Below are positions 1-16,912 of a DNA stretch of 64,000 nt, in pieces (positions within the stretch are counted from its first letter, which is position 1; each line of letters starts with the position of its first letter). The notes beneath the pieces were generated by a model, which saw only the letters and a list, made by a program, of their open reading frames with translations, had not been told where the DNA came from and did no database searches. Made by a program: the position numbers and the translations under genes. Source of the stretch: an uncultured Sunxiuqinia sp. (GTDB lineage: Bacteria; Bacteroidota; Bacteroidia; Bacteroidales; Prolixibacteraceae); NCBI RefSeq assembly GCF_963678245.1, contig NZ_OY782767.1, positions 1 through 64,000 of the forward strand, given 5' to 3'.

Positions 1-72
1 GATGAAGTTGAAGCGGGCTGTAACCGTTGAATTTACTACTATTCCGCCTATTTGCTATATACACTGTTACCA
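1..72. repeat. attC-like cassette junction site 0 (partial)
   Basis: Right part of a palindromic cassette junction of the same subfamily as the sites at 2954 and 4560 (shared GAAGCGGGCT, TTTACTACT, CGCCTATTT, TATATACA). It ends in the core GTTACCA at 66-72. The following bases, TTACCAGC, are the reverse complement of GCTGGTAA at 816-823, at the other end of the first cassette. The left half lies outside the window. Confidence 0.75.
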
Positions 73-83
73 GCTGCTTTTTA

Positions 84-809
84 TTATTTATAGTCTGAAC
101 GAATGTTTCCATTTATCATCCAATATTCATAAACTTCTTTATTTCTGTCTAATAAAAGGTGTCTTGCTATTCGATTACATTTTTTATCAGCATAAAGTCC
201 TTCGTAAATCCCAACAATAAGTAAATTATCTATATCAGAGTCATTCCTATTGCCAAGTTTATTAAAAAACTGAAAAGCCTTTTTAGTAAAGTCCGTAATT
301 TCTGAATTCTTTTTTATGTTCTCAAATAGTTTTAGACTTAATTCTCCATACACTATATATGGTTGGTCATCATTCGAATGGTCTGCTGATTTTTCAAATT
401 CTGGAATATTGTCATAAAGGTCTTTTACCAAATTGTCTTTAAGCGATTCAAGTTCTCTTGATTCCTTATTAATCGAAACCAATTGTCCGTAACAATGGCA
501 ATTAGTCATAACTATTCCCTCAATCAGTGCATTTTTAAAATCTGTGCTTTCGAGTGAGCAATTTTCAAATCTTGAATTAGTCAGGTTACAGTTTATAAAA
601 TCACAACATTTTAAATTACAGTTAGTAAACTTTGCATTTGAAAAGTCCGTTTGAGAAAAGTCAACCGAGAAGCAAGAGTTATCAAATGTCGAATCAGCAA
701 GTATTTGTCCAGTCAATTTTTCACCTTTATCAAAGTCAAGGTTTATAAAGTGACGGTGTCCTTCTTTATATTTTTCAATGATATTTTGTATGTTAGTTGC
801 TGTCTTCAT
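84..809 (-). CDS. Pentapeptide-repeat protein with a C-terminal domain of unknown function (cassette A)
   Basis: A 241-residue protein. Residues about 35-105 form pentapeptide repeats of the A(D/N)LXX type (for example FSQTDFSNAKFTNCNL), which fold as a right-handed quadrilateral beta-helix in known members. Residues about 120-241 are a separate acidic alpha-helical domain; it resembles DUF7674-type domains, but I recall that only weakly. There is no signal peptide, so it is probably cytoplasmic. It is the only gene of its cassette: the start codon is 9 bases from the junction core on its 5' side and the stop codon 12 bases from the core on its 3' side. Some pentapeptide-repeat proteins mimic DNA or act as immunity or toxin modules; no specific role can be assigned here. 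Confidence 0.8.
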   Translation of the reverse strand: MKTATNIQNIIEKYKEGHRHFINLDFDKGEKLTGQILADSTFDNSCFSVDFSQTDFSNAKFTNCNLKCCDFINCNLTNSRFENCSLESTDFKNALIEGIVMTNCHCYGQLVSINKESRELESLKDNLVKDLYDNIPEFEKSADHSNDDQPYIVYGELSLKLFENIKKNSEITDFTKKAFQFFNKLGNRNDSDIDNLLIVGIYEGLYADKKCNRIARHLLLDRNKEVYEYWMINGNIRSDYK

Positions 810-817
810 AAAGTTGC

Positions 818-948
818 TGGTAACGTTTGGTGTAAGTTTTTGTAGCGGATTTTCGGTGCGATTTCCAGTCCGGCAGGACGGAAATTGATGCGAGAATCTG
901 CACCCCGCACACCACCGAACCCGCTATAAAATTTACACATTGTTATGC
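818..948. repeat. attC-like cassette junction site 1
   Basis: A 131-bp imperfect palindrome from TGGTAAC (818-824) to GTTATGC (942-948). The arms GTGTAAGTTTTTGTAGCGG and CCGCTATAAAATTTACAC pair, with a G in the left arm where perfect pairing needs A, and an extra base a few positions further. The centre holds GTCCGGCAGGAC. The first bases to the right (TTATGCCTT) are complementary to AAGGCATAA at 1655-1663. Confidence 0.8.
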
Positions 949-957
949 CTTGTTTTT

Positions 958-1191
958 TTATTCAAAACTTTCCACGAATATTTGTGCATCCTCTTCTGTT
1001 CGGAATATCGCTCTCATTTTTTCTACAGGTTCATTGATTGTGGGGTCGTAGACAACTTTACACATTAGGGGAAAACATTCGTTCTTAATATTACAAATAA
1101 TGAATTGTTCTTTGTCACGTGCTTCTTTGATATCTTCGGTTGAGATATCATTATAGTATTTATCAAATACAACGTATTTTTTGTTTGTCAT
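958..1191 (-). CDS. Small hypothetical protein (cassette B, second gene)
   Basis: A 77-residue protein from the ATG at 1191 (MTNKKYVVFDKYY). A longer version of 90 residues starts at 1230 and overlaps the upstream gene by 25 bases; I prefer the shorter start because it leaves a 14-base gap, as expected for a two-gene unit. It is acidic, with no membrane segment. It contains a short mixed alpha/beta pattern ending in FRTEEDAQIFVESFE. I do not recognise the family. It shares cassette B with the 134-residue gene upstream, so the two may act together; a toxin-antitoxin or immunity pair is possible but unproven. The stop codon lies 10 bases from the junction core. Confidence 0.6.
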   Translation of the reverse strand: MTNKKYVVFDKYYNDISTEDIKEARDKEQFIICNIKNECFPLMCKVVYDPTINEPVEKMRAIFRTEEDAQIFVESFE

Positions 1192-1205
1192 AAATTTTGT
1201 TTTTG

Positions 1206-1610
1206 TTATTGTTTTGAAAACAATTGACACTCAATGTCATGATTCATTATGGAAATTAGAAGCGAAAAAGTGTCCTGATTTAATAGTTTATTGCTGTAAT
1301 CCCTAGCCTTGTCAAGTCTTTTAAATGGTTTTAAAATTTCCTTGGAAATGCCATTCTCGTAAAATACCACAAATGGGAATTCATAAATGTCAAAGTTATA
1401 TTTTGAATAAATATTATCTCTAATTAGTTCTCGTTCAATAATCTTCCGCACTTCTGGGTTTGAAGTGTCTTCAATTAGAGATTTGGGAGGTCTCCTTTTT
1501 TCATATTCAGACGGATAATCCATCTTGTCAATTGGATTTTTGAAACGGCTATTTATGAACAAGGAAAAGTCTGAATCAGAATTCAACGATTTTAATATTT
1601 TATTTCTCAT
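1206..1610 (-). CDS. Hypothetical protein (cassette B, first gene)
   Basis: A 134-residue soluble protein beginning MRNKILKSLNSDSDF. It is rich in Lys, Asp and Asn, with no signal peptide or membrane span. The middle part (YEKRRPPKSLIEDTSNPEVRK) is charged; the C-terminal part alternates aromatic strands and helices. I do not recognise a family. It is the promoter-proximal gene of a two-gene cassette bounded by complementary ends at 942-951 and 1655-1664. The start is about 48 bases from the junction core, leaving little room for an independent promoter unless the junction supplies one. Confidence 0.6.
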   Translation of the reverse strand: MRNKILKSLNSDSDFSLFINSRFKNPIDKMDYPSEYEKRRPPKSLIEDTSNPEVRKIIERELIRDNIYSKYNFDIYEFPFVVFYENGISKEILKPFKRLDKARDYSNKLLNQDTFSLLISIMNHDIECQLFSKQ

Positions 1611-1657
1611 AACAAATGATTTGAATTAGCTGCATTTTTCGGTCTTTTTAAAATAAG

Positions 1658-1791
1658 GCATAACGGTCACTTGTAAGTTGTCGTTGCGGATTTCGAAGAG
1701 CGTTCCTGTCCGAAGGACACGGAACTGTGAAACGAAAATCCAGCGTACGACACGCCACGAACCCCGCAATGCAATTTACAATTTGTTAGGC
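1658..1791. repeat. attC-like cassette junction site 2
   Basis: 134 bp from GCATAAC (1658-1664) to GTTAGGC (1785-1791). Outer arms TTGTAAGTTGTCGTTGCGG and CCGCAATGCAATTTACAA pair except for a G/T position and an extra base in the left arm. The centre is a smaller hairpin, GTTCCTGTCC GAA GGACACGGAAC. GTTAGGC fits the integron core consensus GTTRRRY exactly. Same subfamily as the sites at 3807, 6161, 7269, 13398 and 15675. Confidence 0.85.
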
Positions 1792-1805
1792 GTTCGTAAT
1801 TTATT

Positions 1806-2933
1806 TCACTTTTCACCATCCGAATCATTATCTTTTTTCTTGTTACTTTTTTTCTTTTTGGGAGTATCTTTCTTCTCTCTCTCATCTGAATTATCAGGAA
1901 GTTCAGTCTTTGGTGCACTCAAATTTGACTGGTCAGGTATCACAACTTTGGGGGGCACTAAGTTTGATAAATCAGGAATTTCAACTTTTGGCGGCATCAA
2001 GGTCGACAAATCAGGAATTACGACCTTTGGTGGAATAAATGTAGATAAATCGGGAATATCCATTTTAGGTAATGCGAAATCAAGATTTTGAAGATTTAAT
2101 AATTTCTCTATATCAGTCTCAAATGCCGTGAATTGCTGTGGTTCCAACTCTAAGTCTTTTATCTTCTCTTTTAACTTTTCTATCAATTGAGTTTTCTCCT
2201 CAAGTAATTCCAAATGTTTTTTCTCTCTTAAATAAAGTTCTCTTTTAAGATATTGAACGTAAGACCCCATTTCATCCGCGCTCCCGGCAAGTCGATTGAA
2301 TACAACGAGAAATTGGCTTAAAAGCCTATTGTCTAAGTCATAAGGATACCTGATTTTATGGTCTATCTCGCTCCAAGCTTCTTCAAAAATTGTCCTAACT
2401 TGAACTTCTGCGATATAAACGGTTTTACTTGGTTTTGTTTCTACAAGATAGTGAACAGAGCGATATCCAAATGGATGTTCTTTTACTTGGCATTTATGGT
2501 CAATAAATTTTTCAATGTATTCAGGAGAGTCACCGGTTCGATAATATGCAGTAGGTTCCTCATGTAATCCCCAATTTTCAAGAATAAAATCGTGTATTAA
2601 ATGCCAGTCTTCTTTGAAAAGATGTAAAATTCTTAATCCAATTAAATCAGTAATCTCGCTTTTGTAATTTTCTATATTAATTACTCTCTCAGGTTCATCA
2701 ATTCTCTTTCTTATAATTTTAGCTATTAAATGGTCGGGGTTTTTAATTCTATACCTTACAGAATGTACTTTGTTGACATCATGAAATCTTTCTACTAAGT
2801 ATTTAGCAGGAGCAATAAGTTCAGGTCTAAATGCAATAAAGTCTTCTCTGATTGCAAGTAAGTCTTCCCAGACAAGCCCTGTCTTAAGATACTTTTCTTC
2901 TGTGATGTTAAATCTATTTAGAAATTCATTCAT
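1806..2933 (-). CDS. RelA/SpoT-domain nucleotide (pp)pGpp-type synthetase with C-terminal 13-residue repeats (cassette C)
   Basis: A 375-residue protein from the ATG at 2933 (MNEFLNRFNITEEKY). Upstream in-frame ATGs at 2957 and 2975 lie in or beyond the junction core and are less likely. Residues about 60-215 match the RelA/SpoT synthetase fold: YRIKNPDHLIAKIIRK, DLIGLRI, YRSVHYLVE, AEVQVRTIFEEAWSEIDHK. There is no HD hydrolase, TGS or ACT domain, so it is a stand-alone small synthetase-like enzyme expected to transfer pyrophosphate to a nucleotide or, as in toxic relatives, tRNA. A coiled coil follows (about 225-270). Then come four copies of IPDLSTxxPPKV and a very basic Lys-rich tail. It is the sole gene of its cassette; no antitoxin is adjacent. 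Confidence 0.8.
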   Translation of the reverse strand: MNEFLNRFNITEEKYLKTGLVWEDLLAIREDFIAFRPELIAPAKYLVERFHDVNKVHSVRYRIKNPDHLIAKIIRKRIDEPERVINIENYKSEITDLIGLRILHLFKEDWHLIHDFILENWGLHEEPTAYYRTGDSPEYIEKFIDHKCQVKEHPFGYRSVHYLVETKPSKTVYIAEVQVRTIFEEAWSEIDHKIRYPYDLDNRLLSQFLVVFNRLAGSADEMGSYVQYLKRELYLREKKHLELLEEKTQLIEKLKEKIKDLELEPQQFTAFETDIEKLLNLQNLDFALPKMDIPDLSTFIPPKVVIPDLSTLMPPKVEIPDLSNLVPPKVVIPDQSNLSAPKTELPDNSDEREKKDTPKKKKSNKKKDNDSDGEK

Positions 2934-2953
2934 TTTGTTTGGTTTATTATGAC

Positions 2954-3083
2954 GCATAACGGTAAGTATATGCAAGGTTGGCGATTGCGGGCTTTAAACC
3001 TATCAAACCGTTAAGAAGTTGAAACGGGCTACAATCCTTAAATTTACTACTGTCACGCCTATTTTGTATATACATTGTTGGCA
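2954..3083. repeat. attC-like cassette junction site 3
   Basis: 130 bp from GCATAAC (2954-2960) to GTTGGCA (3077-3083). Second subfamily: GTATATGCAAGGTTGGCG on the left pairs with CGCCTATTTTGTATATAC on the right, with G opposite T at two positions five bases apart. The interior is shared with the sites at 1 and 4560 (GATTGCGGGCTT, AACCTATCAA, CGGGCTACAA). Confidence 0.8.
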
Positions 3084-3091
3084 ACTGGCTT

Positions 3092-3784: not shown

Positions 3785-3806
3785 ATTTTTCTGTTTTCAA
3801 GCTTGT

Positions 3807-3939
3807 TGCCAACGGTCACTTGCAAGTTGTCGTTGCGGAATTCGAAGAGCGTCAGTGTCCGACAGGACATGACGGTCAAGAAAGGAGCAGAGACAACGCA
3901 CTCCACTGCACCCGCAATGCAATTTGCAAATTGTTATGC
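3807..3939. repeat. attC-like cassette junction site 4
   Basis: 133 bp from TGCCAAC (3807-3813) to GTTATGC (3933-3939). Arms TTGCAAGTTGTCGTTGCGG and CCGCAATGCAATTTGCAA, with the conserved G/T position and an extra base in the left arm. The interior differs from site 2 (GTCAGTGTCC, GACATGACGG) and matches the site at 13398. Confidence 0.8.
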
Positions 3940-3946
3940 TTAGGCT

Positions 3947-4519: not shown

Positions 4520-4559
4520 TGTCTATTTGTTAATGAATTTGCGGTTTCTTTTAGCTTAA

Positions 4560-4689
4560 GCATAACGTTTCGTATATGCAAAGTAGGCGATTGCGGGCTT
4601 CAAACCTATCAAGGCGTTACAATTTTGAAGCGGGCTACAACCCTTTAATTTACTACTATCTCGCCTATTTTGTATATACATTGTTACCA
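4560..4689. repeat. attC-like cassette junction site 5
   Basis: 130 bp from GCATAAC (4560-4566) to GTTACCA (4683-4689). GTATATGCAAAGTAGGCG pairs with CGCCTATTTTGTATATAC in 16 of 18 positions; both exceptions are G opposite T, five bases apart. Same subfamily as the sites at 1 and 2954. Confidence 0.85.
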
Positions 4690-4708
4690 CACGTATTTTT
4701 TTAATCCT

Positions 4709-6118
4709 TCAATTAGCAAAAATTGTTTTCTTGTCATAAAAATCTACAACTCTTGGGTCTACAATTATGTCGTTATTTCCTATCGGATTATTTAGAATTA
4801 TCCCAGAAAGCGATTTACATCTACTTAGCGCAACATAAACTTGTCCATGAGCAAAAGCCCCAGTTCCAACATCGACTGTAATTTTGTCAAATGTTTTTCC
4901 TTGACTTTTATGAATAGTCATTGCATATGATAACTGTATTGGATATTGTGTAAATCCTGCAATGATTTTTTCATCAAACTCTCCAGTCTCTCTATTCAAT
5001 ACATACTCAACTTCTTTCCAACTTTCCTTTTCCACTTGATACTTATGCCCATCAATATTTACAACTATCTTTTCATTGTCTAATTTTTCAATTTTTCCAA
5101 TGCTTCCATTAACCCATCTTCTCCCAGAATCATTTTTAAGCATCATAATTTGGGCACTTTTCTTTAGTTTCAATTTGTAAGGGGCAGGAAGTTTATTTTC
5201 TAAATCTTCTTCGCTTTTATCGCGTAATTTTAAATACTTGCCAGATAGTTCTCCAATAAACATAAACTCTTCACTTGGCAACGATTCTAGTTTTTCTTTA
5301 TTAATATTTCTTGCAATATCTCTTCGTGTTGTTAGAAAAATTGAATTGTCTTGCTCCCCAGCATTGTCCTTATGTCTTGAATTTAGCAATACCATATCCT
5401 CAAATTGAACTTTATTGCTTCTAACATTATTCAGTAATTTTTTAAATTTTTCTTCTTCCTCTGATTGTCTGAAAATTCTAGTTAGTAGCTTAAAATGATA
5501 ATTAAATTCACTGAAAACAGGAGCATCAAAAAAATATTGTCCAGAATATTTTGTCAGTATAGTATTTCTATCAGTAGAGGTCAAGACTGGTGGAAGTTGA
5601 AATAAATCACCTATCAAGACCATTTGAACTCCTCCAAATGGTTCGTTTAAACGATTTCTGTTTTTTCTTAATGCTATATCGATACCGTGCATTAAGTCTG
5701 ACCTAACCATAGAAATCTCATCAATTATTACCATTTCTAACTTTTTAAATAATTCAGCTCGGACATAGTCAGGTTGAATTTCTGTAGGGTCAATAATACT
5801 TGGTCTAAAGCGAAAAAATGAATGTATTGTCTGACCGCTTACATTTAAAGCAGCAATTCCAGTTGGTGCTAAAACAATATATTTTTTATTTGTTTTCTTT
5901 ATGAAGTGATTGAGCAAGGATGATTTTCCTGTTCCTGCTTTTCCTGTAATAAATACACTGTCATTTGAATTATTCAAAATCCCAATAATTTCCTTGAATT
6001 CATCCGTTAGAATAAATTGAGGTTTTGGCGTAGGTTTAGAAATTGGTGTTTCCTTTCTATTTCCATTAACCAAGAATATAACTAAAATAATAAATCCAAA
6101 TACTATTAAATATCCCAT
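4709..6118 (-). CDS. PIF1-like DNA helicase with an N-terminal membrane anchor (cassette F)
   Basis: A 469-residue SF1B helicase of the PIF1/RecD family. The P-loop GKAGTGKSS is at residues 59-67, followed by APTGIAALNVSGQTIHSFF (motif Ia and the PIF1 signature). Walker B is IIDEISMVRSDL, then IGDLFQLPPV (motif III), and the C-terminal motif is YAMTIHKSQGKTFD. Such enzymes unwind DNA 5' to 3' using ATP. Unusually, residues 3-17 are a hydrophobic helix (LIVFGFIILVIFLVN) that would tether it to the inner membrane. It is the only gene of its cassette; ends at 4683-4697 and about 6153-6167 pair in 14 of 15 positions. A role in defence or plasmid/phage processing is inference from context only. 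Confidence 0.88.
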   Translation of the reverse strand: MGYLIVFGFIILVIFLVNGNRKETPISKPTPKPQFILTDEFKEIIGILNNSNDSVFITGKAGTGKSSLLNHFIKKTNKKYIVLAPTGIAALNVSGQTIHSFFRFRPSIIDPTEIQPDYVRAELFKKLEMVIIDEISMVRSDLMHGIDIALRKNRNRLNEPFGGVQMVLIGDLFQLPPVLTSTDRNTILTKYSGQYFFDAPVFSEFNYHFKLLTRIFRQSEEEEKFKKLLNNVRSNKVQFEDMVLLNSRHKDNAGEQDNSIFLTTRRDIARNINKEKLESLPSEEFMFIGELSGKYLKLRDKSEEDLENKLPAPYKLKLKKSAQIMMLKNDSGRRWVNGSIGKIEKLDNEKIVVNIDGHKYQVEKESWKEVEYVLNRETGEFDEKIIAGFTQYPIQLSYAMTIHKSQGKTFDKITVDVGTGAFAHGQVYVALSRCKSLSGIILNNPIGNNDIIVDPRVVDFYDKKTIFAN

Positions 6119-6160
6119 CGTTTTATTTTTCTATGCGACTTCAGTGTCTTTGAATATGTG

Positions 6161-6293
6161 TGGTAACGGTTGGTACATGTTGTCGGGGCGGATTTCGGAG
6201 CGCGTTCCTGTCCGAAGGACACGGAACAGGGATGCGAGAATCCGCAGTTGGCGTACCACCGAACCCCGCCCTGCAATATGTATTGTGTTAGCG
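6161..6293. repeat. attC-like cassette junction site 6
   Basis: 133 bp from TGGTAAC (6161-6167) to GTTAGCG (6287-6293). TACATGTTGTCGGGGCGG pairs with CCGCCCTGCAATATGTA, again with G opposite T and an extra left-arm base. It is almost identical over its length to the site at 15675. The TTA of the right core supplies the stop codon of the next gene. Confidence 0.85.
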
Positions 6294-7238: not shown

Positions 7239-7268
7239 ATTACATTTTTATTCTTGATTCATGCTTGC

Positions 7269-7401
7269 CGCTAACGGTCACTTGTAAGTTGTCGTTGCGG
7301 ATTTCGGAGCTCGTTCCTGTCCGGTAGGACGGAACGATGTTGCGAGAATCCAGCGTACGACACACTACGAACCCCGCAATGCAATTTACAATTTGTTATC
7401 G
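7269..7401. repeat. attC-like cassette junction site 7
   Basis: 133 bp from CGCTAAC (7269-7275) to GTTATCG (7395-7401). Arms TTGTAAGTTGTCGTTGCGG and CCGCAATGCAATTTACAA, the same as in site 2. The stop codon of the ABC-3C ATPase (7386-7388) lies inside the right arm. Confidence 0.85.
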
Positions 7402-9323
7402 GCTGTATTTCTTTCTTTCAGTATAAAATCTTTGTTCTTTTCACTAAATCGTAGTTTTATTTTGTCTTTATAATGTTCAGGATATTTTTCCTCTCCAGTT
7501 GTTAGTAGAATTTGGAATTTACCTAATTCATCAGATTCTTTATTTTTAGATAGCTTAAGAGCCAACTCTAATAATTCAAGGTCATGTTTAAGGTTGTCAT
7601 CGTCAATTCCTGCTGTTTCAGGGGTGTCAAGTAAAAGAAATCCTGGATGTTTTACGGATTTCAATTTTAAGGATAAACTAAGAATTGTGTAATAATACAT
7701 CATTCGTTTAGGAACATCTGCACTCTTATTTTTGTATTCACCTTCATCAATGAAGGGCATATATTCTTCATCAATTTGTGCACTATTACAATTACATGAT
7801 GATTTTTGCATCAATTCGTTGTAAATTATATTGAATTCCTTAATGGTCTTTTCATTTCCTTTTTCAAATCTAAATTTCAATTGATTAAATTCTTGGTTTA
7901 CTTTCTTGTAATCGCGATTTTTGCTTTCGAAATCATTATTTAATTGGCGCTTTCTTTTAGTCAATTCTAGCTCATTCTCATTTTCTAAAATTTCTTTTTT
8001 TACTTCATTTATTTTTTCATTTAAAGAATCTACAAACTGAGAATTTCCAGAATATTCAATTGCATTTATTACTGAACGTAGCTTCTGTTTTAAATCGTTT
8101 GAATATGAAGTGTTTTTATCAATTGAGTATCTAAGTTTTTTAATTTCTTCGTCATATGATGTCAAAGCAACCTGAATTGTTGCCAAACTTTTTTCTTTAT
8201 GTTTCAAAATCTCAGTATACTCAGATGCGCTATAGACAAATTTCTCATATTTATCTTTACTAAACTCTTCTCCGCATATACAAAAACCTTCCTTTTTGGG
8301 CTTTTTTGTCATGCAGAATGGGCAAACCTCCATTGAGAATAGATTTAATTTCTCGTGCGTAAATATTGTCTTTTTTATCTCAGATATCTCTTCTGTGAGG
8401 TTTGTATGTAGCTTTCTAATTTTTGAAACTTCAGATTGATATGTTTCCATTTGTACAGTATCTTCAGATACTTTTAAATCAAGATTTATTAGGTCTGACT
8501 GTATTTGAGCTAAGTGTTCCGTTTTTTCATCAACCTTTGTATTTGTCTTTTGATATAAATCTCTTTCTGCTATAAGCTTTTCAAGTTGGCGGTTAAATTC
8601 ATCAATCTTATCTTCAAGTTCATCTCTATCATCTGATACTCTTGGATACATTTCGATGAAGTCTGTTAATCTTGATTTTGATGCATCCTTTAATTTTTGA
8701 AATTTCTTTAGTTCATCCAGTTTTTTGTAATATTCAATTGATGAAATACCCAACATTATTTCAAAAGTTGACTTTCTAATTATTGATGAATCTGCTATAA
8801 AATTATCTGCTGGTGGAGATTTAAATATTCTGCGTGGTTCAGTGTCTTGGTCATAACAAAGCAGCCTGTATAAATCACTAAAATTAAAGTACCACGTATT
8901 GACCCCCAAGTTTAATTCGAAAACCGGTATCGAAAGTTTTTTTAATAACCAATCAGAAAATATAAATGGAGCATGTTCTTTATGCCTGTTTATAGGAAAT
9001 TTATTTACCGTTTCCCCATCTGATATGAAAATTTCATTTTGATTAATAAACCTTTTTATAGAATACTCAACTGCATTAATTTGAATATCTATCTCAACAA
9101 AGTTATTTTTGTCATCAAGTATTTTTGAATACTTTTCTCTTTTCTCATTATCATTAAAAGGCTTTACTGTTCCGCCTAACCCATACTCTATAAAATAGGA
9201 AAATGTACTTTTCCCTGAACCATTGTCGCCAACTATGATGTTTACACCTTCATCAAATTCTGGTGATTCAAAATAATATTGCTCACCATAATACCGTACT
9301 TGTTTTATTATTAAATTTCCCAC
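7386..9323 (-). CDS. ABC/Rad50-type ATPase of an ABC-three-component (ABC-3C) conflict system (cassette H)
   Basis: A 645-residue SMC/Rad50-like ATPase. The N-terminus reads MGNLIIKQVRYYGEQYYF with Walker A GDNGSGKST at residues 32-40. A long coiled coil follows (about 195-500), interrupted near residues 334-352 by CPFC and CICG pairs, a zinc-ribbon-like or zinc-hook-like insertion. The C-terminal nucleotide-binding half contains GFLLLDTPE (Walker B). It is the last gene of a three-gene unit, overlapping the preceding gene by 13 bases. In ABC-3C systems this ATPase is thought to sense invasive nucleic acid and drive an effector; that is family-level knowledge. It ends inside the junction site. 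Confidence 0.85.
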   Translation of the reverse strand: MGNLIIKQVRYYGEQYYFESPEFDEGVNIIVGDNGSGKSTFSYFIEYGLGGTVKPFNDNEKREKYSKILDDKNNFVEIDIQINAVEYSIKRFINQNEIFISDGETVNKFPINRHKEHAPFIFSDWLLKKLSIPVFELNLGVNTWYFNFSDLYRLLCYDQDTEPRRIFKSPPADNFIADSSIIRKSTFEIMLGISSIEYYKKLDELKKFQKLKDASKSRLTDFIEMYPRVSDDRDELEDKIDEFNRQLEKLIAERDLYQKTNTKVDEKTEHLAQIQSDLINLDLKVSEDTVQMETYQSEVSKIRKLHTNLTEEISEIKKTIFTHEKLNLFSMEVCPFCMTKKPKKEGFCICGEEFSKDKYEKFVYSASEYTEILKHKEKSLATIQVALTSYDEEIKKLRYSIDKNTSYSNDLKQKLRSVINAIEYSGNSQFVDSLNEKINEVKKEILENENELELTKRKRQLNNDFESKNRDYKKVNQEFNQLKFRFEKGNEKTIKEFNIIYNELMQKSSCNCNSAQIDEEYMPFIDEGEYKNKSADVPKRMMYYYTILSLSLKLKSVKHPGFLLLDTPETAGIDDDNLKHDLELLELALKLSKNKESDELGKFQILLTTGEEKYPEHYKDKIKLRFSEKNKDFILKERNTADNKL

Positions 9324-9811
9324 GTGAGTATATTATTTGAGGTAAATAACTTGTCAACTAATGTTTTTACAGTTAAAATATTTAAATGACTTGCATGTTT
9401 TTTTATCATTTTAATATTGTCAATTTCCTTTTTAAACATCTTCTTATCGAAGAACTCCGATGGAATCTCTTCTAAATTTAGCCAGATGTCAAATGAATTA
9501 CTCACGGAATTTATAGAAACATCAATAAAATTGTGATTTCTGAGTACAACCAAAAGATGTGATATAAGCTGTTTTTTTAGTTGCGCCTTGGAGTATATGC
9601 TTGCCAATTCATCTCTTGTATATTCGGTAATATTTCCACCCGAGTTAATAAATTCAATCAAATATGCTACTTTCCTGAAATCCTTAAACTTTCGGTCAGG
9701 GGATGTGCATTTTAATGAATACAGAAGAATTATTAGATTATAAGTAAGGAAATTATAATCTTCCTTCTGAATAAACATCATACGCTTTTTTGCAAATGCC
9801 TTATTTTTCAT
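9311..9811 (-). CDS. Middle component of the ABC-3C system (cassette H)
   Basis: A 166-residue helical protein (MKNKAFAKKRMMFIQKEDYNFLTYNLIILLYSL), compatible with a winged-helix-like fold. It has the size and position of the 'middle component' proteins that link the ATPase to the third component in ABC-3C loci. Sequence alone would not identify it; the call rests on its place between a SMEK-type gene and a Rad50-like ATPase and on tight coupling (4-base ATGA overlap upstream at 9808-9811, 13-base overlap downstream). It contains NIIDVSINSVSNSFDIWLNLEEIPSEFF-like strand/helix alternation. Confidence 0.65.
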   Translation of the reverse strand: MKNKAFAKKRMMFIQKEDYNFLTYNLIILLYSLKCTSPDRKFKDFRKVAYLIEFINSGGNITEYTRDELASIYSKAQLKKQLISHLLVVLRNHNFIDVSINSVSNSFDIWLNLEEIPSEFFDKKMFKKEIDNIKMIKKHASHLNILTVKTLVDKLFTSNNILTWEI

Positions 9812-10758
9812 GTGTAAATTCCTTCTTCATCAAATGATAAATAACACTCATCGATTAATGCTAATACAACTTTTCTTAAAATATCTCTATTTCTTAAAGG
9901 ATAAATATAGTCTTGAGATTTGTCCTCAATTATTTTAAATGCTCTTTCGGTGTATCTTTCAATTAATGCAGTTAGTTCGATAGTTGATAATTCGCCGTCG
10001 TCTTGATTCTCAACGAAATCAATAAGCTCATCTTGACATACTTCAAAGATTCGATATTTCATTGCACTTATTACCCTTTCTGAGTGTCGGGAAAGCTCAA
10101 CCTTCCCTGATGCAATATCCCGGCAATATTTTTTTATTCGTACTTCTTTGACAGTTGAACTTGCAGATTTTAATTTGTCAGTAATATTTCTAATATCGGT
10201 TGGATTTGTTTTTTCCCATTCTTCGATAGCAGTTAAATCATCTTTTTTAATTATGTCTGGAATATTAGATATAATATCACGATTTAAAAGTTCTGAAATT
10301 TCACCAAGACGATTAAGATTTGAAAATGGCATGATATTCAACAATTTTGATAAATCCCATTCTTCAAATTCAAACTTGTCTTTTATTATTTCCTCAAAGC
10401 CAGTATTTCTTTTTGGTTTCTTTATTCGGCAATACAGAATTACAACTTTAGCGTAATCCTCGTTTTTATATTTATTAAGAGTTTCGACAACTTTTTTTCT
10501 TTTTATAGTGGATGTTACCTGAATTGCAATATCATTTTTATCATCACCTAAATCAATTGCAGTATAGTTGCCTTCAAGTTCTGAATTAAGGTTCTTGAAT
10601 TTTCTGTCCGTGTATATAAAATTCAGAAGTTCACAGAACGTATCTTCAGTATTTATATTGATGTCGTGCAAATTTAAACTGCTAGATAATTCAACCTTTT
10701 TCACTAAATGCGTAAATGCATCAAGTATTATTTTTTTATGATAATCTCTCTCTGACAT
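9808..10758 (-). CDS. SMEK-domain component of the ABC-3C system (cassette H)
   Basis: A 316-residue protein. The N-terminal 130 residues match the SMEK domain seen in conflict systems: LHDININTEDTFCELLNFIY, then AIDLGDDKNDIAIQVTSTIKRKKVVETL. This looks like a nuclease-fold core (D...QVTS) related to restriction-endonuclease-like sensors/effectors. The C-terminal half is helical (about 165-310) and resembles the ABC-3C C-terminal module. It is the first gene of the three-gene unit and overlaps the next by 4 bases. The start ATG is about 41 bases from the junction core at 10799. It is probably the effector or target-recognition subunit; the specific activity is not known. Confidence 0.75.
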   Translation of the reverse strand: MSERDYHKKIILDAFTHLVKKVELSSSLNLHDININTEDTFCELLNFIYTDRKFKNLNSELEGNYTAIDLGDDKNDIAIQVTSTIKRKKVVETLNKYKNEDYAKVVILYCRIKKPKRNTGFEEIIKDKFEFEEWDLSKLLNIMPFSNLNRLGEISELLNRDIISNIPDIIKKDDLTAIEEWEKTNPTDIRNITDKLKSASSTVKEVRIKKYCRDIASGKVELSRHSERVISAMKYRIFEVCQDELIDFVENQDDGELSTIELTALIERYTERAFKIIEDKSQDYIYPLRNRDILRKVVLALIDECYLSFDEEGIYT

Positions 10759-10798
10759 TATTTATTGAATTTATGCATTAGGTCGTTTTTAATATTGC

Positions 10799-10988
10799 CG
10801 ATAACGGTTGGTGTATGTGGAATGCGGGATTAAAAGTGATGAACTTTCAAAACCGCACGGAGCCAATTCGTTTATTCAGTATTTCAAATTTTCCGTCAAT
10901 CGTCAAAGACGAATTGGCGGTGTTGCAACAACGAGCCGCAGCCGCAAAAACCGCTGAAACCCGCATTACATATGACACTTTGTTACCA
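10799..10988. repeat. Enlarged attC-like cassette junction site 8
   Basis: 190 bp from CGATAAC (10799-10805) to GTTACCA (10982-10988), about 55 bp longer than every other site. GTGTATGTGGAATGCGGG pairs imperfectly with CCCGCATTACATATGACAC. An additional internal hairpin is made by GCCAATTCGT (about 10862-10871) and ACGAATTGGC (about 10910-10919). It has no coding sequence. Confidence 0.75.
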
Positions 10989-11006
10989 AACGTATTTTTC
11001 TTTTTA

Positions 11007-11288
11007 TCATTTATTATCTTGATTTAAATAGAAATATTTTAATCTGATTTTATTAAGAAGAATAACATAAATAATTGTCAGAGGAATAGAAAAGATAATA
11101 TTTGAAAGGATATCTGCCGGAGTAAATAGTCCACAAATAATTACAATAATTGCTGTGCCATAAACATTAAAACACCAATTGATTTGTTTTTTCTTTTCCA
11201 CATTGTTGAAATACAATTTTATATTTCGAATTATTCCAATTGCAATTATCATTAACGATAGAAAAATCTCAGCTCCACTTAGTAACAT
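11007..11288 (-). CDS. Small membrane protein (cassette I, third gene)
   Basis: A 93-residue protein with three likely membrane helices (LSLMIIAIGIIRNIKLYF, YGTAIIVIICGLFT, NIIFSIPLTIIYVILLN). No motif identifies a family. It ends 19 bases from the junction core. With two more small membrane proteins in the same orientation it forms a three-gene cassette whose ends (10982-10996 and about 11928-11942) pair in 14 of 15 positions. Confidence 0.6.
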   Translation of the reverse strand: MLLSGAEIFLSLMIIAIGIIRNIKLYFNNVEKKKQINWCFNVYGTAIIVIICGLFTPADILSNIIFSIPLTIIYVILLNKIRLKYFYLNQDNK

Positions 11289-11321
11289 ATTTTAAATTTA
11301 GATTCTTTATTCTAATATTTC

Positions 11322-11552
11322 CTAAATATCTAATACAATAAATAAAATTAGGTATAATACCATTAATACAGATGCTGCTATACGTATAGTATTAAAAAGC
11401 CGTTTAGAAATCAATTCTTTAATACAAAAAGGTATAAATAGCACTGCCATTAAAGCATAAAAGATAAAATCACCATTTTTAAAATATGCAACAATTGCAA
11501 GTGAAATTAATATTGCTGATAGTGCAACCCAATAAAAATCAATCTTTTTCAT
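11322..11552 (-). CDS. Small membrane protein (cassette I, second gene)
   Basis: A 76-residue protein with three hydrophobic stretches (FYWVALSAILISLAIVAYF, FIFYALMAVLFIPFCI, IRIAASVLMVLYLILFIV) and only short loops. The family is not recognised. It lies 33 bases from its downstream neighbour; its size and hydrophobicity resemble the two flanking genes, so the three may be diverged copies or subunits of one membrane complex. That is inference. Confidence 0.6.
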   Translation of the reverse strand: MKKIDFYWVALSAILISLAIVAYFKNGDFIFYALMAVLFIPFCIKELISKRLFNTIRIAASVLMVLYLILFIVLDI

Positions 11553-11629
11553 ATTGTTTGTTTTGCAATAAAACCGTTAAATCTTATTGAATTCTTAATT
11601 CGCAAATTATGTTTCAAATTATCATTATT

Positions 11630-11881
11630 TTAAATTAACCATTTCACAGCACTATAAATCACAAAACAAATTGGTATGATATAGGACAAATAATTCAAAG
11701 ATTTTTTTAGTTTCCGATTCTTTATTTGCAATGCAACAAAAGTCAATAAATATCCAAATGATATTGATAAAATAATCAATCCAAGAAGATATTTGCTTTC
11801 TTGTTTTATTATTATCGAGATGCCAAATAGTAAAGTGGCAAGTGAATAAATTAAATGTTTGTACTTTAAATAAAATTTCAT
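11630..11881 (-). CDS. Small membrane protein (cassette I, first gene)
   Basis: An 83-residue protein with three predicted membrane helices (HLIYSLATLLFGISIII, YLLGLIILSISFGYLLTFVAL, LNYLSYIIPICFVIYSAVKWLI). The family is not recognised. It is the most upstream gene of the cassette, 55 bases from the junction core at 11936. The gap of 77 bases to the next gene holds no obvious hairpin. Confidence 0.6.
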   Translation of the reverse strand: MKFYLKYKHLIYSLATLLFGISIIIKQESKYLLGLIILSISFGYLLTFVALQIKNRKLKKSLNYLSYIIPICFVIYSAVKWLI

Positions 11882-11935
11882 TTCAGTTATAATTTCATTG
11901 TTAATTTGTCATGAGCAACTCTTTTTCAATATGTT

Positions 11936-12067
11936 TGGTAACGGAAAATTGTATGAGTAGTGGCAGATTGCGTGATAGTTTCCTGTCAAACCGCTACGCA
12001 GTTTGAGCGGGATACAAACCTTGATATTTAGCACTTCCCCTGCCATTACTTATACAAAATGTTATGA
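11936..12067. repeat. attC-like cassette junction site 9
   Basis: 132 bp from TGGTAAC (11936-11942) to GTTATGA (12061-12067). TTGTATGAGTAGTGGCAG pairs with CTGCCATTACTTATACAA; the two exceptions are G opposite T, five bases apart, exactly as in sites 5, 11 and 13. The centre holds CAAACCGC TACGCA GTTTGAGCGG. Confidence 0.85.
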
Positions 12068-13371
12068 GCTGCCTTTTCTATTTTTATATATTTTATTTCT
12101 CCTTTTCTCTTCACTAAACTTAATCCATTTTCATTTAATAACTCAATCCATTTATCTACACTTGAGCTTTCATCGTTAATTGAAATGTTTAATGCAAACT
12201 CTCCTTTAATATTAGTCGTAACTGGAAAGTAGATTTTTTTATCTTGCTGATTCCAATATTTATTGTCCTGCAAAAAAACAATTTGCTTCTCAATCAATGC
12301 AGCGATTGATTCAGCAGTATAAATATTGCTGGTTGTAAGTTCCTTAAACGATTGTGATGTACTTCCCGTTATCTTGATTGTTGAATTTGGTACGGTAACA
12401 ATCTTATTTTCCTTTAAATCAATGTCTATAAGTTCATAATAGGTAATTTCTTTTTCGATAATCTCTGTTTTTAGCCCCCAAACACTATTTAGTTGATTGA
12501 TAAGTATTTCTTTAAAATCACCTACCAAATTTGAACAAGAGAAATTCATTTTATAGCGGTAGTTAGGAAGACTTGAATTTAAATAATTCAAATTTCTATC
12601 ATAAATAAACCGTGATGTCGGAATATTGTCGAATGCATACTGATATATCTGCAACGCATTTTTTCCTGCAATTACACAACCATTAATTGTTTCTATAGTA
12701 TCAAAATATGCTTTTCCGGTGTAGCCTGTTATTATTTGGAGAGGTATGTCCTTATTGCAAGTTTCTTCAATATAGTTTCTTTCGCCTAGTTCATGTCTCT
12801 GTAGTTCAAATGTTATTAAGGAATTTTTATTATTGTCTTTTCTTAATTGAGAAGGGACAAAATTCTTTTTTGTTGGTAAATTGACCTGATGGTCATTATT
12901 TAGTTCGGTAAGGATTTGTTCAGTTACATAACCAGGATATGTTTGGGCATTGATTTGTCCTTTTTTATCAATTAGTATTGTATGTGGAATCCCAGAGTGC
13001 GGAAATATCTCCGACAGTAACTTCTCTCCGTCATAAATAAAGTCAAAAGGGAAGTCATTTCTTGTGATAAATTCAACTGTTTTGTCAAATCGATCACTAG
13101 AGACACAAACAACCTTTAGTGAATTCGGAAATTTACTTTGTAACGCTTTCAGATGCCCCATTCCTTCAATACAAGGACCGCACCAAGTCTCCCAGAATTC
13201 AATTATAGTAATCTTGCCTTTTGTTTGGTCTATAAAATCATAATTGACACACACGCCATTCTTGATTTGTTTGAATTCCGTGCTCCCAACTTTGTTTCCA
13301 ATTTCGGTTTTTTGTCCAAATGTTAATAGAATTGAAAAAAATAATAAGGAAATGGTTGTGATTATTTTCAT
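12046..13371 (-). CDS. TlpA-like thioredoxin-fold periplasmic protein with an extra C-terminal region (cassette J)
   Basis: A 441-residue protein from the ATG at 13371 (MKIITTISLLFFSILLTFGQ), which gives a signal peptide; the longer in-frame start at 13509 lies within a junction site and is rejected. Residues about 50-160 are a TlpA/ResA-type thioredoxin domain with the redox pair C64-x-x-C67 in ETWCGPC and a GIPHTILIDKKG loop with cis-proline. It is likely a periplasmic thiol-disulfide reductant or thiol peroxidase-like protein. The rest (about 200-441) resembles the TIGR03435/DUF3738 type that sometimes follows TlpA domains in Bacteroidota; I am not certain. The reading frame runs about 20 bases past the core into the junction site. 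Confidence 0.8.
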   Translation of the reverse strand: MKIITTISLLFFSILLTFGQKTEIGNKVGSTEFKQIKNGVCVNYDFIDQTKGKITIIEFWETWCGPCIEGMGHLKALQSKFPNSLKVVCVSSDRFDKTVEFITRNDFPFDFIYDGEKLLSEIFPHSGIPHTILIDKKGQINAQTYPGYVTEQILTELNNDHQVNLPTKKNFVPSQLRKDNNKNSLITFELQRHELGERNYIEETCNKDIPLQIITGYTGKAYFDTIETINGCVIAGKNALQIYQYAFDNIPTSRFIYDRNLNYLNSSLPNYRYKMNFSCSNLVGDFKEILINQLNSVWGLKTEIIEKEITYYELIDIDLKENKIVTVPNSTIKITGSTSQSFKELTTSNIYTAESIAALIEKQIVFLQDNKYWNQQDKKIYFPVTTNIKGEFALNISINDESSSVDKWIELLNENGLSLVKRKGEIKYIKIEKAAHNILYK

Positions 13372-13397
13372 AGTTTGCTGTTTTGTTTTAAGGTTGC

Positions 13398-13533
13398 CCA
13401 TAACGGTAAATTGTAAGTTGTCGGTGTGGATTTCGCAGAGCGTCAGCGTCCGTTTACGGACATGACGGTCAAGAAAGGTGCAGCGACGATGGCGTATTAC
13501 AAACACCACACTGCAATTTACAAAATGTTGTGG
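13398..13533. repeat. attC-like cassette junction site 10
   Basis: 136 bp from CCATAAC (13398-13404) to GTTGTGG (13527-13533). TTGTAAGTTGTCGGTGTGG pairs with CCACACTGCAATTTACAA with the conserved G/T position and the extra left-arm base. The interior (GCGTCAGCGTCC, GACATGACGGTC) is shared with site 4. Confidence 0.85.
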
Positions 13534-13539
13534 GTAGTT

Positions 13540-14112
13540 TTATAATCCTTTTATTTTGTAAATAGTTGAATTATTACTAATTAATTTATAGACACCTATA
13601 CCTTTAATTAGTATAATTTCTTGAAATCTATTGTTTTCTAAACTATTAATTGAAATAACATTATCATAAGCAATTCCGTCAATTAAGACAGAGTTTTTAA
13701 AAGTTGAAAAGTCCGATTTTGGACTGCCATAAAAAGTGTCTGCTAATTTGCCAATCAAAATATCAAAATCCATAAGTGAATCAGGCATATTTTCACTGGT
13801 TAAAATATCTATGCTAAGATTAACATATTTTGAAGAATCAGTCTCAGTTTTAATATACTTGTTTGAGTGACAATATGAATAGTCATCGGACCAGCTTGTA
13901 TAATAACTATCTGAAGTTGAAATCTCAACAATAGGTAAAACAATTGTGTCTATCTGCGAGATAAGAAATAAAGTATCGCCATAATTATATGGAAGCCAAC
14001 TTTCTTTGTTTTCAGGAAAAGAGGCACATTCAATTCTTGCGCATCCAGATGAAATTATTAGATATGGAAGTATTAAAATGAATGTGATTTTGAAAATGTC
14101 TTTTCGAATCAT
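13540..14112 (-). CDS. Hypothetical lipoprotein (cassette K)
   Basis: A 190-residue protein with a lipoprotein signal peptide: hydrophobic FILILPYLIISSG followed by Cys in a lipobox-like SSGC at about residues 21-24. It should be lipid-anchored. The mature region is strand-rich and Ser/Asp/Tyr-rich, ending IKGIGVYKLISNNSTIYKIKGL, as in many Bacteroidota outer-surface lipoproteins. I do not recognise the family. The stop is 7 bases from the junction core; the 123 bases upstream of the start are larger than usual for the array and could hold a promoter. Confidence 0.65.
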   Translation of the reverse strand: MIRKDIFKITFILILPYLIISSGCARIECASFPENKESWLPYNYGDTLFLISQIDTIVLPIVEISTSDSYYTSWSDDYSYCHSNKYIKTETDSSKYVNLSIDILTSENMPDSLMDFDILIGKLADTFYGSPKSDFSTFKNSVLIDGIAYDNVISINSLENNRFQEIILIKGIGVYKLISNNSTIYKIKGL

Positions 14113-14235
14113 TTTATCAATAGTCGTTTTAGAAATTATACTTCATAAAAGCTTTGCTACTGTTAAAGATATTTAATTTTAATAATTATAAATCTAGAAA
14201 ATAACCTTTGTTGGTAGTAGGTTCGCAAAAATTAC

Positions 14236-14366
14236 CCACAACGGCATCGGCTATGAGTAGTTGCGTGGGTTAGCAATTAACTTTGCAAGTACACACCAAA
14301 CTGAAAATCCGCGAGGATTTTCAGAAGTAGGCGAGAACAAGCAATTACTTATAGCCATTGTTGTGG
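14236..14366. repeat. attC-like cassette junction site 11
   Basis: 131 bp from CCACAAC (14236-14242) to GTTGTGG (14360-14366); the two cores are exact reverse complements. GGCTATGAGTAGTTGC pairs with GCAATTACTTATAGCC, with two G/T positions five bases apart. The centre is a strong hairpin, CTGAAAATCC GCGA GGATTTTCAG. Confidence 0.85.
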
Positions 14367-15568: not shown

Positions 15569-15674
15569 AATTTGTGATTTTAAATTGGTTAATAAAATTA
15601 GCTATAATCGATTATAGTTCAAATACCTAATTAGGGGTAAATTATTTAGCGCAAGATGCTTTTTTTCAAATGCA

Positions 15675-15807
15675 CCACAACGGTTGGTACATGTTGTCGG
15701 GGCGGATTTCGGGGAGCGTTCCTGTCCGAAGGACACGGAACTGCGATGCGAGAATCCGCAGTTGGCGCACCACCAAACCCCGCCCTGCAATATGTACTGT
15801 GTTATGG
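15675..15807. repeat. attC-like cassette junction site 12
   Basis: 133 bp from CCACAAC (15675-15681) to GTTATGG (15801-15807). Nearly identical in its interior to site 6 (TGTTGTCGGGGCGGATTTC, TGTCCGAAGGACA, CGCCCTGCAATATGTA). The left and right cores belong to different cassettes (CCACAAC against GTTATGG), as expected if cores travel with cassettes. Confidence 0.85.
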
Positions 15808-15822
15808 GCTGCCTTTTATTTA

Positions 15823-16231
15823 TTATTCTTGGTATTTGCATTTATTAAAGTTCTCTAAGTCAAAAATTTCATCCTTGATTTCGCTCAGGTTTTCTTTTAT
15901 TAGTTCTTGCATTTGTAGGTAATATTCTTTGTTATTATCCCAAAACTCAGTCCTAATTGAGAGTACATTTTAATAGGTCACCTTCATAAAAGTCTCCTTC
16001 CGCGAATATGTTAACAGAGAGAGTTTCAATAGCTAAAGTAATTAGATAGTCTAAACTGAACTGTTGTCCAATCATAATTCGCAAATCTTCTGTTGTAAAC
16101 TTATTTAATGGTACTTTTCGTAATTCTTTTGTCCTTTTGATAAGCCTACTGTCACTGTCAAAATGCTGCCAATCATCTTTTTCTAAGTTTGTCAGTGTTT
16201 TTTGACGCCAATTATTTTCAAGTTTTGTCAT
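15823..16231 (-). pseudogene. CdiI-type contact-dependent-inhibition immunity protein, frameshifted (cassette M)
   Basis: The first reading frame (15953-16231, 92 residues) matches CdiI-family immunity proteins: LTNLEKDDW, ELRKVPLNKFTTEDLRIMIGQQFSLDYLITLAIETL, FAEGDFYEGDLLK. It then stops prematurely. In the next frame the match continues without a gap as VLSIRTEFWDNNKEYYLQM and ends in a natural stop at 15823-15825, 16 bases from the junction core like other genes of the array. One extra base at about 15967 explains the break. The repaired protein would have about 135 residues. Either it is a recent pseudogene, an assembly indel, or (least likely) needs frameshifting. Such proteins neutralise contact-delivered toxins; no toxin is adjacent. 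Confidence 0.75.
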
Positions 16232-16246
16232 TATAATTTTACGTTT

Positions 16247-16762
16247 CTATTCTCCATAAATTTCATAAAGTCGATTTAGTCGTAATCCTTCCTTGTCGTG
16301 TTTCGCCCAAAAGTCACGTATTGTATAAATTATTTCCTTACTTCCATTTTCTGGTCCGAACTGATAATCTGTAAGAAAAAAGATTCTCTTAATAGGCGAT
16401 TTTTCGAGTGCTACTTTTAATATTTTATCAATGTCTGCTTTATACTTTTCTAAAAATTGAAATAGAAACTGTTGGTTCGCACCCAAGGTGTCTGTCGGGT
16501 CATTTAAATTTACTTTCGGAATTTCCACATTTCTCGGGTCAAAATCCCAGTTAATAATTTTACCTGCAAAAAATCCAAATTCCTCATTTTTTAAATCTGG
16601 ATTTCCAATATGCACAATCGTTCCAGATTGTTTTATTAAAAAGTCATGAAACAGCCCTCTATGACTTATCAATTTATTTTCTTCAATTATCGCAACATCA
16701 AAATCATTTTGATTAAGATTCAGACTATTTGATTCTATTGAAGCAATTTCTATAGTTGGCAT
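16247..16762 (-). CDS. Hypothetical protein, 171 residues (cassette M, first gene)
   Basis: A soluble alpha/beta protein beginning MPTIEIASIESNSLNLNQNDFDVAIIEENKL. It contains IVHIGNPDLKNEEFGFFAGKIINWDFD and ends near RDFWAKHDKEGLRLNRLYEIYGE. It has no signal peptide. I believe similar proteins occur in other Bacteroidota, often in small accessory cassettes, but I cannot name the family. It lies 15 bases upstream of the broken CdiI-type gene in the same orientation and cassette, so the two were probably co-transcribed. The start is 21 bases from the junction core. Confidence 0.65.
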   Translation of the reverse strand: MPTIEIASIESNSLNLNQNDFDVAIIEENKLISHRGLFHDFLIKQSGTIVHIGNPDLKNEEFGFFAGKIINWDFDPRNVEIPKVNLNDPTDTLGANQQFLFQFLEKYKADIDKILKVALEKSPIKRIFFLTDYQFGPENGSKEIIYTIRDFWAKHDKEGLRLNRLYEIYGE

Positions 16763-16782
16763 TGTCTTTTTTTAAGGTTGCC

Positions 16783-16912
16783 CATAACGTTTAATTGTAT
16801 GTTTCGTACCGGTTTGCGGGATGGCCCCTTTTCATAAAAAAGGGAAAAAATGCGCGGGAAACCGGCTCCGGGGAATTCCTGTCCCCGGTATGAAATATAC
16901 AAGTTGTTATGG
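16783..16912. repeat. attC-like cassette junction site 13
   Basis: 130 bp from CCATAAC (16783-16789) to GTTATGG (16906-16912). TTGTATGTTTCGTACCGG pairs with CCGGTATGAAATATACAA in 16 of 18 positions, the two exceptions being G opposite T five bases apart. It is the last complete site at the right edge of the array. Confidence 0.85.

Follow-up and report, generated by a model that had tools for sequence, protein, structure and literature searches.

An integron is defined by an integrase, IntI, that carries a domain specific to it (PMC9668308, PMC7790495), and one account describes its I2 helix as needed for cassette capture, as conferring single-strand recombination and as present in no other protein (PMC7790495). 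Clusters of attC sites lacking integrases (CALINs) are reported to be common, with cassettes that may be served in trans (PMC9668308). The paper on IntegronFinder 2.0 names one complete integron, that of Salinibacter, within Bacteroidetes proper (PMC9024848). Here we describe the window, a stretch of 64,000 nucleotides from an uncultured Sunxiuqinia sp. (Bacteroidia; assembly GCF_963678245.1, contig NZ_OY782767.1, positions 1 to 64,000), whose first 16,912 bases hold an array of gene cassettes. The window very probably carries one array of a chromosomal integron-like system, a variant of the integron whose recombinase lacks the IntI patch. Under the definition that requires the additional domain the system falls outside the integrons; in its workings it closely resembles them. 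It has in common with integrons tandem cassettes pointing in one direction, 3′ hairpin sites running from AAC to GTT, a crossover at G/TT (the slash marking the point of exchange), self-complementary cassette ends, the transfer of whole cassettes and, on another contig, an attI-like head next to a recombinase gene with the cassettes joined at G/TT.

The array comprises 13 complete palindromic sites, exactly where an earlier note on this DNA, made from the letters alone, had placed them. Twelve measure 130-136 bp and one 190 bp, and each has the form nnnnAAC...GTTnnnn (13/13). A 14th site is incomplete because the contig (C1) starts at window base 1 and the array runs off it there. A covariance model, R1, was built from 17 sites, comprising 12 from the window (all but the 190-bp site) and five from contig C10 of the same assembly (11 contigs, 97.8% complete). 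Sites 2 to 7 and 9 to 13 are defined by their AAC and GTT ends together with this type of model. The sites, and the first cassette and head of the array, are as follows.

1..72, minus strand: partial cassette site (14th), found by cmsearch, model positions 1-72 of 134, cut at its 3′ end
818..948, minus strand: cassette site 1, 131 bp, AAC at 822 and GTT at 942, E 2.4e-23
1658..1791, minus strand: cassette site 2, 134 bp
2954..3083, minus strand: cassette site 3, 130 bp
3807..3939, minus strand: cassette site 4, 133 bp
4560..4689, minus strand: cassette site 5, 130 bp
6161..6293, minus strand: cassette site 6, 133 bp
7269..7401, minus strand: cassette site 7, 133 bp
10799..10988, minus strand: cassette site 8, the 190-bp subtype, 87% identical to one C10 site
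11936..12067, minus strand: cassette site 9, 132 bp
13398..13533, minus strand: cassette site 10, 136 bp
14236..14366, minus strand: cassette site 11, 131 bp
15675..15807, minus strand: cassette site 12, 133 bp
16782..16912, minus strand: cassette site 13, 131 bp
16788..17444, minus strand: 14th cassette, the first of the array, beyond site 13; 657 bp including its own site, with no convincing open reading frame
17446..17600, minus strand: attI-like head, a conserved block ending CTAGTT, insertion point G/TT between 17445 and 17444

No further cassette site was found by R1 at E≤1 in window positions 17,000-64,000, an Rfam scan of positions 1-20000 gave no match up to E 1, and the starts of contigs C1 and C4, both near an array, showed no exact overlap.

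The ends of a cassette were compared by setting the first bases that follow its TT against the reverse complement of the last ones that precede AAC. In the window the mean run of own-end matches beyond TT/AA was 5.85 bases (n = 13), compared with 1.08 in the 156 other pairings of a start with an end, and in 11 of the 13 cassettes the run was 6-7 bases beyond TT, or 8-9 counting TT; for these the earlier note's claim of self-complementary ends holds. The two sides of a single window site, which derive from different cassettes, match over just 0-4 bases. This contrast is what one would expect had each cassette at some time been joined end to end. Across the genome, 76 cassettes were excised from between intact neighbouring sites (a cutting rule from which the TT start and G end follow), and 55 of these had an own-end run of at least 4 compared with 282 of 5700 crosses. 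The 64 lying outside the window had a mean run of 4.58 (at least 4 in 45), and 22 cassettes from the recombinase loci of relatives gave 4.91 compared with 0.78 for their crosses (at least 4 in 15/22 and 10/462, respectively).

Scanning the genome with R1 detected at least 109 sites at E≤1e-3 (150 of 888 candidates were scored). In the window and 19 other stretches of this genome there were 119 matches at E≤1, amounting to 118 distinct sites, one match being an opposite-strand echo on C1. These sites fall into 18 clusters (a few consisting of just one site), each confined to one strand, and AAC and GTT were both in register in 94 of the 119 matches. R1 sites were present in 25 of 31 genomes (30 relatives and this one), including 7/7 of the genus. 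Four different cassettes recur whole in two to five arrays, with borders falling exactly at G/TT.

Window 10805..11941, minus strand: 1137-bp cassette, also at C6:152338-153474, 1136/1137 identical, borders exactly G/TT
C10:76249-76853: cassette also found at two places on C6, 605/605 identical each
C4:1336264-1336891 and C6:334750-335377: one cassette in two places, 627/628 identical
Window 16788-17444: the 657-bp first cassette, also on C10 and at two places on C6 (657/657) and on C7 (98.8%), five arrays in all

The presence of whole cassettes with exact G/TT borders in different arrays indicates, as far as comparison of copies can tell, that cassettes move as units by recombination at G/TT. 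Copying by homologous recombination between similar sites, without a site-specific enzyme, would suit one border at which the neighbouring sites share 12 bases past G/TT. However, it predicts borders anywhere in the 130-bp repeat, whereas in six pair comparisons the shared stretch extended past G/TT by 2-12 bases at the left border and by 2-6 at the right one, and copies of the head diverge at GTT; we consider this explanation highly improbable.

Related genomes were compared at the same place. In genome G298, of the same genus, the flank at window positions 18037-20545 is conserved at about 92% identity (95% over 1.66 kb), while the 15.4 kb to the left of this shared flank contained three sites belonging to G298 itself and matched the window only over site-sized pieces (81-156 nt); in the 15 kb beside the flank no cassette of the window was found. 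Two further genomes of the genus, G295 and G299, have the flank gene (72-82% identical) but no R1 site in the stretches examined on the array side, which span about 11 kb in L112 and about 2.6 kb in L108; the array thus has no fixed presence at this position. The same genes in a fixed order in related strains, which the earlier note had named as evidence against its proposal, were thus not seen in G298, G295 or G299. That the sites are ordinary intergenic repeats (repetitive extragenic palindromes, interspersed mosaic elements or terminators) among genes that do not move as units is an idea which their palindromic form, intergenic position and number might invite. It is hardly credible, being refuted by the moved whole-cassette copies with exact G/TT borders and contradicted by own-end complementarity and by a flank in G298 that lacks every window cassette. 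The proposal of integron-like cassettes circularising through attC-like sites is well supported by the identical G/TT-cut cassettes in several arrays and by the G298 flank.

The earlier note had seen no attI, but the attI-like head lies at 17446-17600, just past the end of the array as drawn there. It contains the palindrome AGGTGTTGTTATACC...GGTATAACAACACCT, and its block has eight copies in the genome: that of the window and seven others, on C10, C6 (two), C4 (three, one of them partial) and C7. All copies are conserved down to ...TAGTT and every one diverges at GTT. Seven of the eight open into a cluster of sites, and the first cassette varies among them, being common only to the window and C7. 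The remaining copy, a partial head near C4:507 kb (C4:507362-507447, locus L137), has no R1 site listed nearby and is possibly an empty or dead attI. On C10 the head sits behind the stop codon of a recombinase gene, and its G/TT is separated by one extra cassette from the 657-bp cassette that in the window abuts the head; judged by their sequences, the two heads constitute a natural before and after of insertion at attI. Remnants of the recombinase 3′ end occur in the two C6 heads (17 and 17 codons) and in the C4:1142k head (28 codons), at 82-88% identity, and a weak tblastn match in the window head suggests another:

17540..17575, minus strand: possible decayed recombinase 3′ end, about 12 codons, 8/12 residues, E 0.086

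These remnants suggest that the heads probably dispersed as fragments of copies that were originally larger.

The recombinase encoded directly ahead of the C10 array is the only place in the genome matched by its own sequence at E≤1e-30.

C10:70129-71277: tyrosine recombinase, 383 residues, with an N-terminal extension, a SAM_4 domain and a Phage_integrase domain

The description 'integrase-less' therefore fits the window array but not the genome, in which a matching recombinase has an array of its own. Searched with NCBIfam models, the C10 protein passed the cut-off of NF040815 (225.8 bits, cut-off 220), an XerA-type model described as 'site-specific tyrosine recombinase/integron integrase', and failed that of TIGR02249, the integron integrase model (204.6 bits, cut-off 265). 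Alignment with VchIntIA broke into two pieces, skipping VchIntIA residues 180-244 and query residues 280-302. The interval that holds the IntI patch spans 66-71 residues in 29/29 proteins of the C10 family, compared with 108 in 21/21 IntI proteins (several of them near copies) and 71 and 74 in two Xer proteins. The 29 comprise 19 from loci L042-L061 (minus the fragment L058), three from L006-L008, five from L100-L104, one protein resembling the recombinases of rAID clusters (see below) and the C10 protein itself. The search for an integron-integrase patch, recommended in the earlier note, was accordingly negative: the family lacks the IntI-specific I2/patch of about 40 residues. It has instead an N-terminal extension of about 100 residues, with full-length family matches beginning at about residue 104-112. 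In a model of a relative made with AlphaFold2 (AF2) from 3 sequences (mean pLDDT 66, pTM 0.44), no helix is predicted to fill the patch position, and a Foldseek search with this model returned VchIntIA (2a3v) first (E 1.1e-17) with XerA close behind (E 2.0e-15), the TM-score being low for both (0.41 by query length). Compared by sequence, the C10 recombinase appears to be a patchless relative of the integron integrases, not an IntI. Three members (L007:9989-11137, L006:10001-11143 and L005:8130-9281) share the motif WSQTMKCWY within the extension.

We examined 20 recombinase loci of relatives, picked for high score and contig room from 211 matching genomes of 295. An R1 site stood beside the recombinase in 14/20 at E≤1e-3 and in 15/20 at E≤1, always on the same strand and downstream. 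A contig search with the C10 recombinase gave 6 loci, of which 3 weaker ones came from records titled Lachnospiraceae, Clostridia and Ruminococcus.

A classical integron, in which an I2-bearing IntI acts in trans and the arrays are ordinary CALINs, would agree with the abundance of CALINs and the service in trans ascribed to them (PMC9668308), and the gene could be missing from an assembly that is 97.8% complete. However, 0/17 TIGR02249 matches in this genome exceeded the cut-off, and in relatives the sites adjoin the patchless gene. Canonical IntI exceeded the cut-off in 105 of 395 genomes of the phylum, but among the matches listed only G142 belongs to the same class (G142:C40:3592-4530, 421.9 bits, patch interval 108, row intI_L139). 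We regard a canonical IntI in trans as very unlikely.

The relationships of the recombinases were examined by phylogeny. In a first tree IntI fell beside or inside the C10 family with weak support; this arrangement gave way to a tree with more outgroups, from which new_L061 (a long branch) and ten near-identical IntI rows were left out. Here IntI formed one group (100/99) and the C10 family another (74/94, unproven). IntI, the C10 family, recombinases associated with IS91 insertion sequences (IS) and a Lachnospiraceae row were separated from two Xer rows and a Thermus row (99/97), while the branching order of the C10 family, the IS91-side recombinases and IntI lacked firm support. A single clade of C10 family plus IntI was absent from the best tree (p-AU 0.196).

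The stem of the sites was compared with shuffled controls. Standard pairs filled 94.2% of pair cells in the 17 sites compared with 73.7% after shuffling, and in 12 of 19 pairs both partners had changed (shuffles averaged 8.3 and attained 12 in 4/500). The covariation score was 0.472 compared with 0.137 for shuffled sites, falling to 0.10 or less when the arms were slid; the structure was read from the same 17 sites that were tested, which biases these measures in its favour. Conserved A·C mismatches are one-sided on the coding strand: 179 A·C compared with 12 C·A in the 93 usable of 119 matches in this genome, and 63 compared with 5 in the 38 usable of 43 matches from relatives, part of the excess being selection because R1 itself contains A·C columns. 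At least two A·C mismatches were present in 79 of the 93 sites, and a bulged A on the 3′ arm occurred 46 times. A·C on the coding strand is T·G on the other, and with DNA parameters the non-coding strand was the more stable in 85/93 intact sites of this genome, 12/13 of the window and 34/41 of relatives. The margin is modest (mean difference -2.5 kcal/mol, compared with a mean absolute difference of 1.55 in 100 random window 132-mers). On these calculations the stabler non-coding strand fits the classical bottom-strand rule, by another mark.

Taken together, these observations suggest the following mechanism. A cassette would consist of a gene or small operon with a palindromic site of about 130 bp at its 3′ end. 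The C10 recombinase would cut at G/TT and release cassettes, which would then be inserted at the G/TT of other sites or of attI-like heads. Because the head at 17446-17600 starts the window array and the recombinase gene lies on C10, the enzyme would serve the window in trans. Its substrate would be a folded single strand, the better-pairing non-coding one, recognized through the conserved T·G/A·C positions of the stem and not through extrahelical bases docked by an I2 helix.

The same system could instead recombine double-stranded DNA in the manner of Xer/dif, its hairpins serving transcription termination or protection of mRNA ends. This is what absence of the patch from 29/29 proteins would lead one to expect, given that PMC7790495 presents I2 as the known adaptation to single strands, and on one strand the stems pair almost perfectly. 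Against it, the arms of the site covary, and the A·C mismatches (179 to 12) are one-sided, which implies that the two strands of a site are not equivalent. Moreover, the outer stem (TT/AA plus 6-7 bases in 11/13 window cassettes) is complementary only in a cassette's own circle. We judge the double-stranded route unlikely, and favour folded single strands as the substrate of the patchless recombinase.

Several points weigh against an integron-like system run by the C10 family. With the I2 helix reported as necessary, a patchless enzyme should not capture cassettes by the known route (PMC7790495). The case for the system is one of sequence comparison. In two of the 13 window cassettes end complementarity is weak (1786-2959, run 1 beyond TT, and 12062-13403, run 3), so here the ends are less complementary than the earlier note had claimed. 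One of five structure measures, further pair types, did not rise above shuffles (20 compared with 17.6; 90/500). Six of the 20 recombinase loci of relatives had no R1 site at E≤1e-3. Among the 14 Phage_integrase matches in the genome, surroundings were read for the C10 gene and two C6 genes, and the latter encode recombinases of 405 and 409 residues (L145:3654-6125, that is C6:172653-175124) in tandem on the same strand, 3-6 kb beyond the distal end of the C6:140-170k array. They scored 43 and 36 bits with TIGR02249 and are far from the C10 family by score; they resemble integrases of conjugative transposons, although some role for them is conceivable. Finally, related recombinases on Proteobacteria and Thermus plasmids adjoin IS91 transposases in 3/5 loci, suggesting that the wider recombinase family is not only for cassettes.

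Beyond the recombinase, which lacks the I2/patch of about 40 residues and has the N-terminal extension, the system differs from integrons in several respects. The R′′ sequence fits the consensus RYYYAAC in only 1/13 window sites; the stems appear to be marked by conserved A·C mismatches instead of the two extrahelical bases known in integrons; the recombinase is transcribed toward the cassettes; and eight attI-like heads accompany one family gene. Xer/dif and XerA share the catalytic domain, the patchless length and the NF040815 match over cut-off (225.8 against 220), but the two Xer rows fall outside the group of IntI, C10 family and IS91-side recombinases (99/97). The IS91-associated tyrosine recombinases of Proteobacteria are 34-37% identical and likewise patchless (67-73 residues), but differ in adjoining an IS91 transposase in 3/5 plasmid loci. 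In the accessible passages on the 'Integron-like' subgroup of a 2021 classification of tyrosine recombinases, the insertion is not fully conserved but is called essential for integron function, and no patchless cassette arrays are described (PMC8138268).

The recombinase-associated acquired interbacterial defence (rAID) clusters of Bacteroidales, reportedly first described by Ross et al. in 2019, also have a recombinase of the same clade, which stands ahead of short genes that all point one way and are separated by intergenic motifs. On a Bacteroides ovatus plasmid (NZ_CP081918.1, L134:7848-16927), a recombinase 53% identical to the C10 protein precedes a series of genes, several of them with immunity-protein annotations, and the two recombinases fall in one five-row clade (100/98). 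We read this array as a rAID cluster from its gene names and from passages on rAID in PMC12247911. It differs from the window in its short sites, with gene gaps of 38-82 bp in 12/13 intervals, and R1 found no match in this locus at E≤10. It also has several immunity-annotated genes, whereas the window cargo is mixed with one immunity match in 19 proteins, and no tyrosine recombinase stands beside the window array, although the C10 array has one adjoining. The first four B. ovatus cassettes, picked by eye, all have complementary 8-base ends (4/4), suggesting that rAID arrays may be short-site integrons of the C10 recombinase family. Among the papers listed by a literature search, none was seen to describe patchless integrons in Bacteroidia or to call rAID an integron, which is weak evidence of absence as most subscription papers were beyond its reach.

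A broader reading, on which we are evenly divided, would join these observations: a second, I2-independent integron lineage would be widespread in Bacteroidia, with a patchless IntI-related recombinase, folded sites marked by A·C on the coding and T·G on the other strand, one gene serving many dispersed heads, and rAID as a specialised branch. Such a lineage may preserve the state from or beside which the I2-bearing IntI arose. A cassette system working without I2 would make the account of I2 as necessary, as given in PMC7790495, testable. In Bacteroidia a reservoir of cassettes may have gone unnoticed for want of a patch in its integrase, and the recombinase clade ties the system to the rAID-like array of a human gut bacterium, B. 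ovatus.

The cargo of the window includes a three-gene Lamassu-like defence set and an immunity gene of the contact-dependent inhibition (CDI) type. Pfam families scored above cut-off in 7/19 window proteins scanned, and one of the 19 matched an immunity family (CdiI_3).

84..809, minus strand: pentapeptide-repeat protein (Pfam Pentapeptide_4, E 5.3e-15)
1806..2975, minus strand: RelA/SpoT-domain protein (Pfam RelA_SpoT, E 1.4e-20)
4709..6118, minus strand: PIF1-like helicase (Pfam PIF1, E 3.8e-32)
7386..9323, minus strand: LmuB-like ATPase (PADLOC LmuB, E 1.2e-48; Pfam AAA_23, AAA_23/AAA_15)
9311..9811, minus strand: LmuC-like protein (PADLOC LmuC, E 1.4e-11)
9808..10758, minus strand: SMEK-domain protein (Pfam SMEK_N, E 1.9e-30; PADLOC Aga_REase-PNTD1-PNTD2, E 1.5e-26, not LmuA)
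12046..13371, minus strand: thioredoxin/redoxin-domain protein (Pfam Redoxin, E 5.5e-13)
15953..16231, minus strand: CDI-type immunity protein (Pfam CdiI_3, E 1.6e-24)

The Lamassu-like set lies in the 3.4-kb cassette 7396-10804, with Lamassu models matching two of its members.

An Acinetobacter baylyi plasmid (NZ_CP104737.1, L133:5022-6971) encodes a short protein related to the recombinase (about 52% identity over 200 residues), immediately upstream of tet(X3). R1 detected no site in this locus, in which the two genes lie between IS26 and ISVsa3, with tet(X3) where a first cassette would lie.

Two types of insertion sequence were observed within cassettes. One, presumably of the IS110 family, occupies four cassettes (C6:340731-342879, C10:82828-84941, C4:1333273-1336263 and C6:157251-159901), and in the single copy read through to its other end the element sits within the cassette site, near AAC. 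IS1111-attC elements reportedly sit likewise inside classical attC sites. A second element, which we take to be of the IS3 type, starts 13 bases into the cassette in 3/3 copies found by its first 30 bases (C10:86173, C4:1139262 and C4:1133590).

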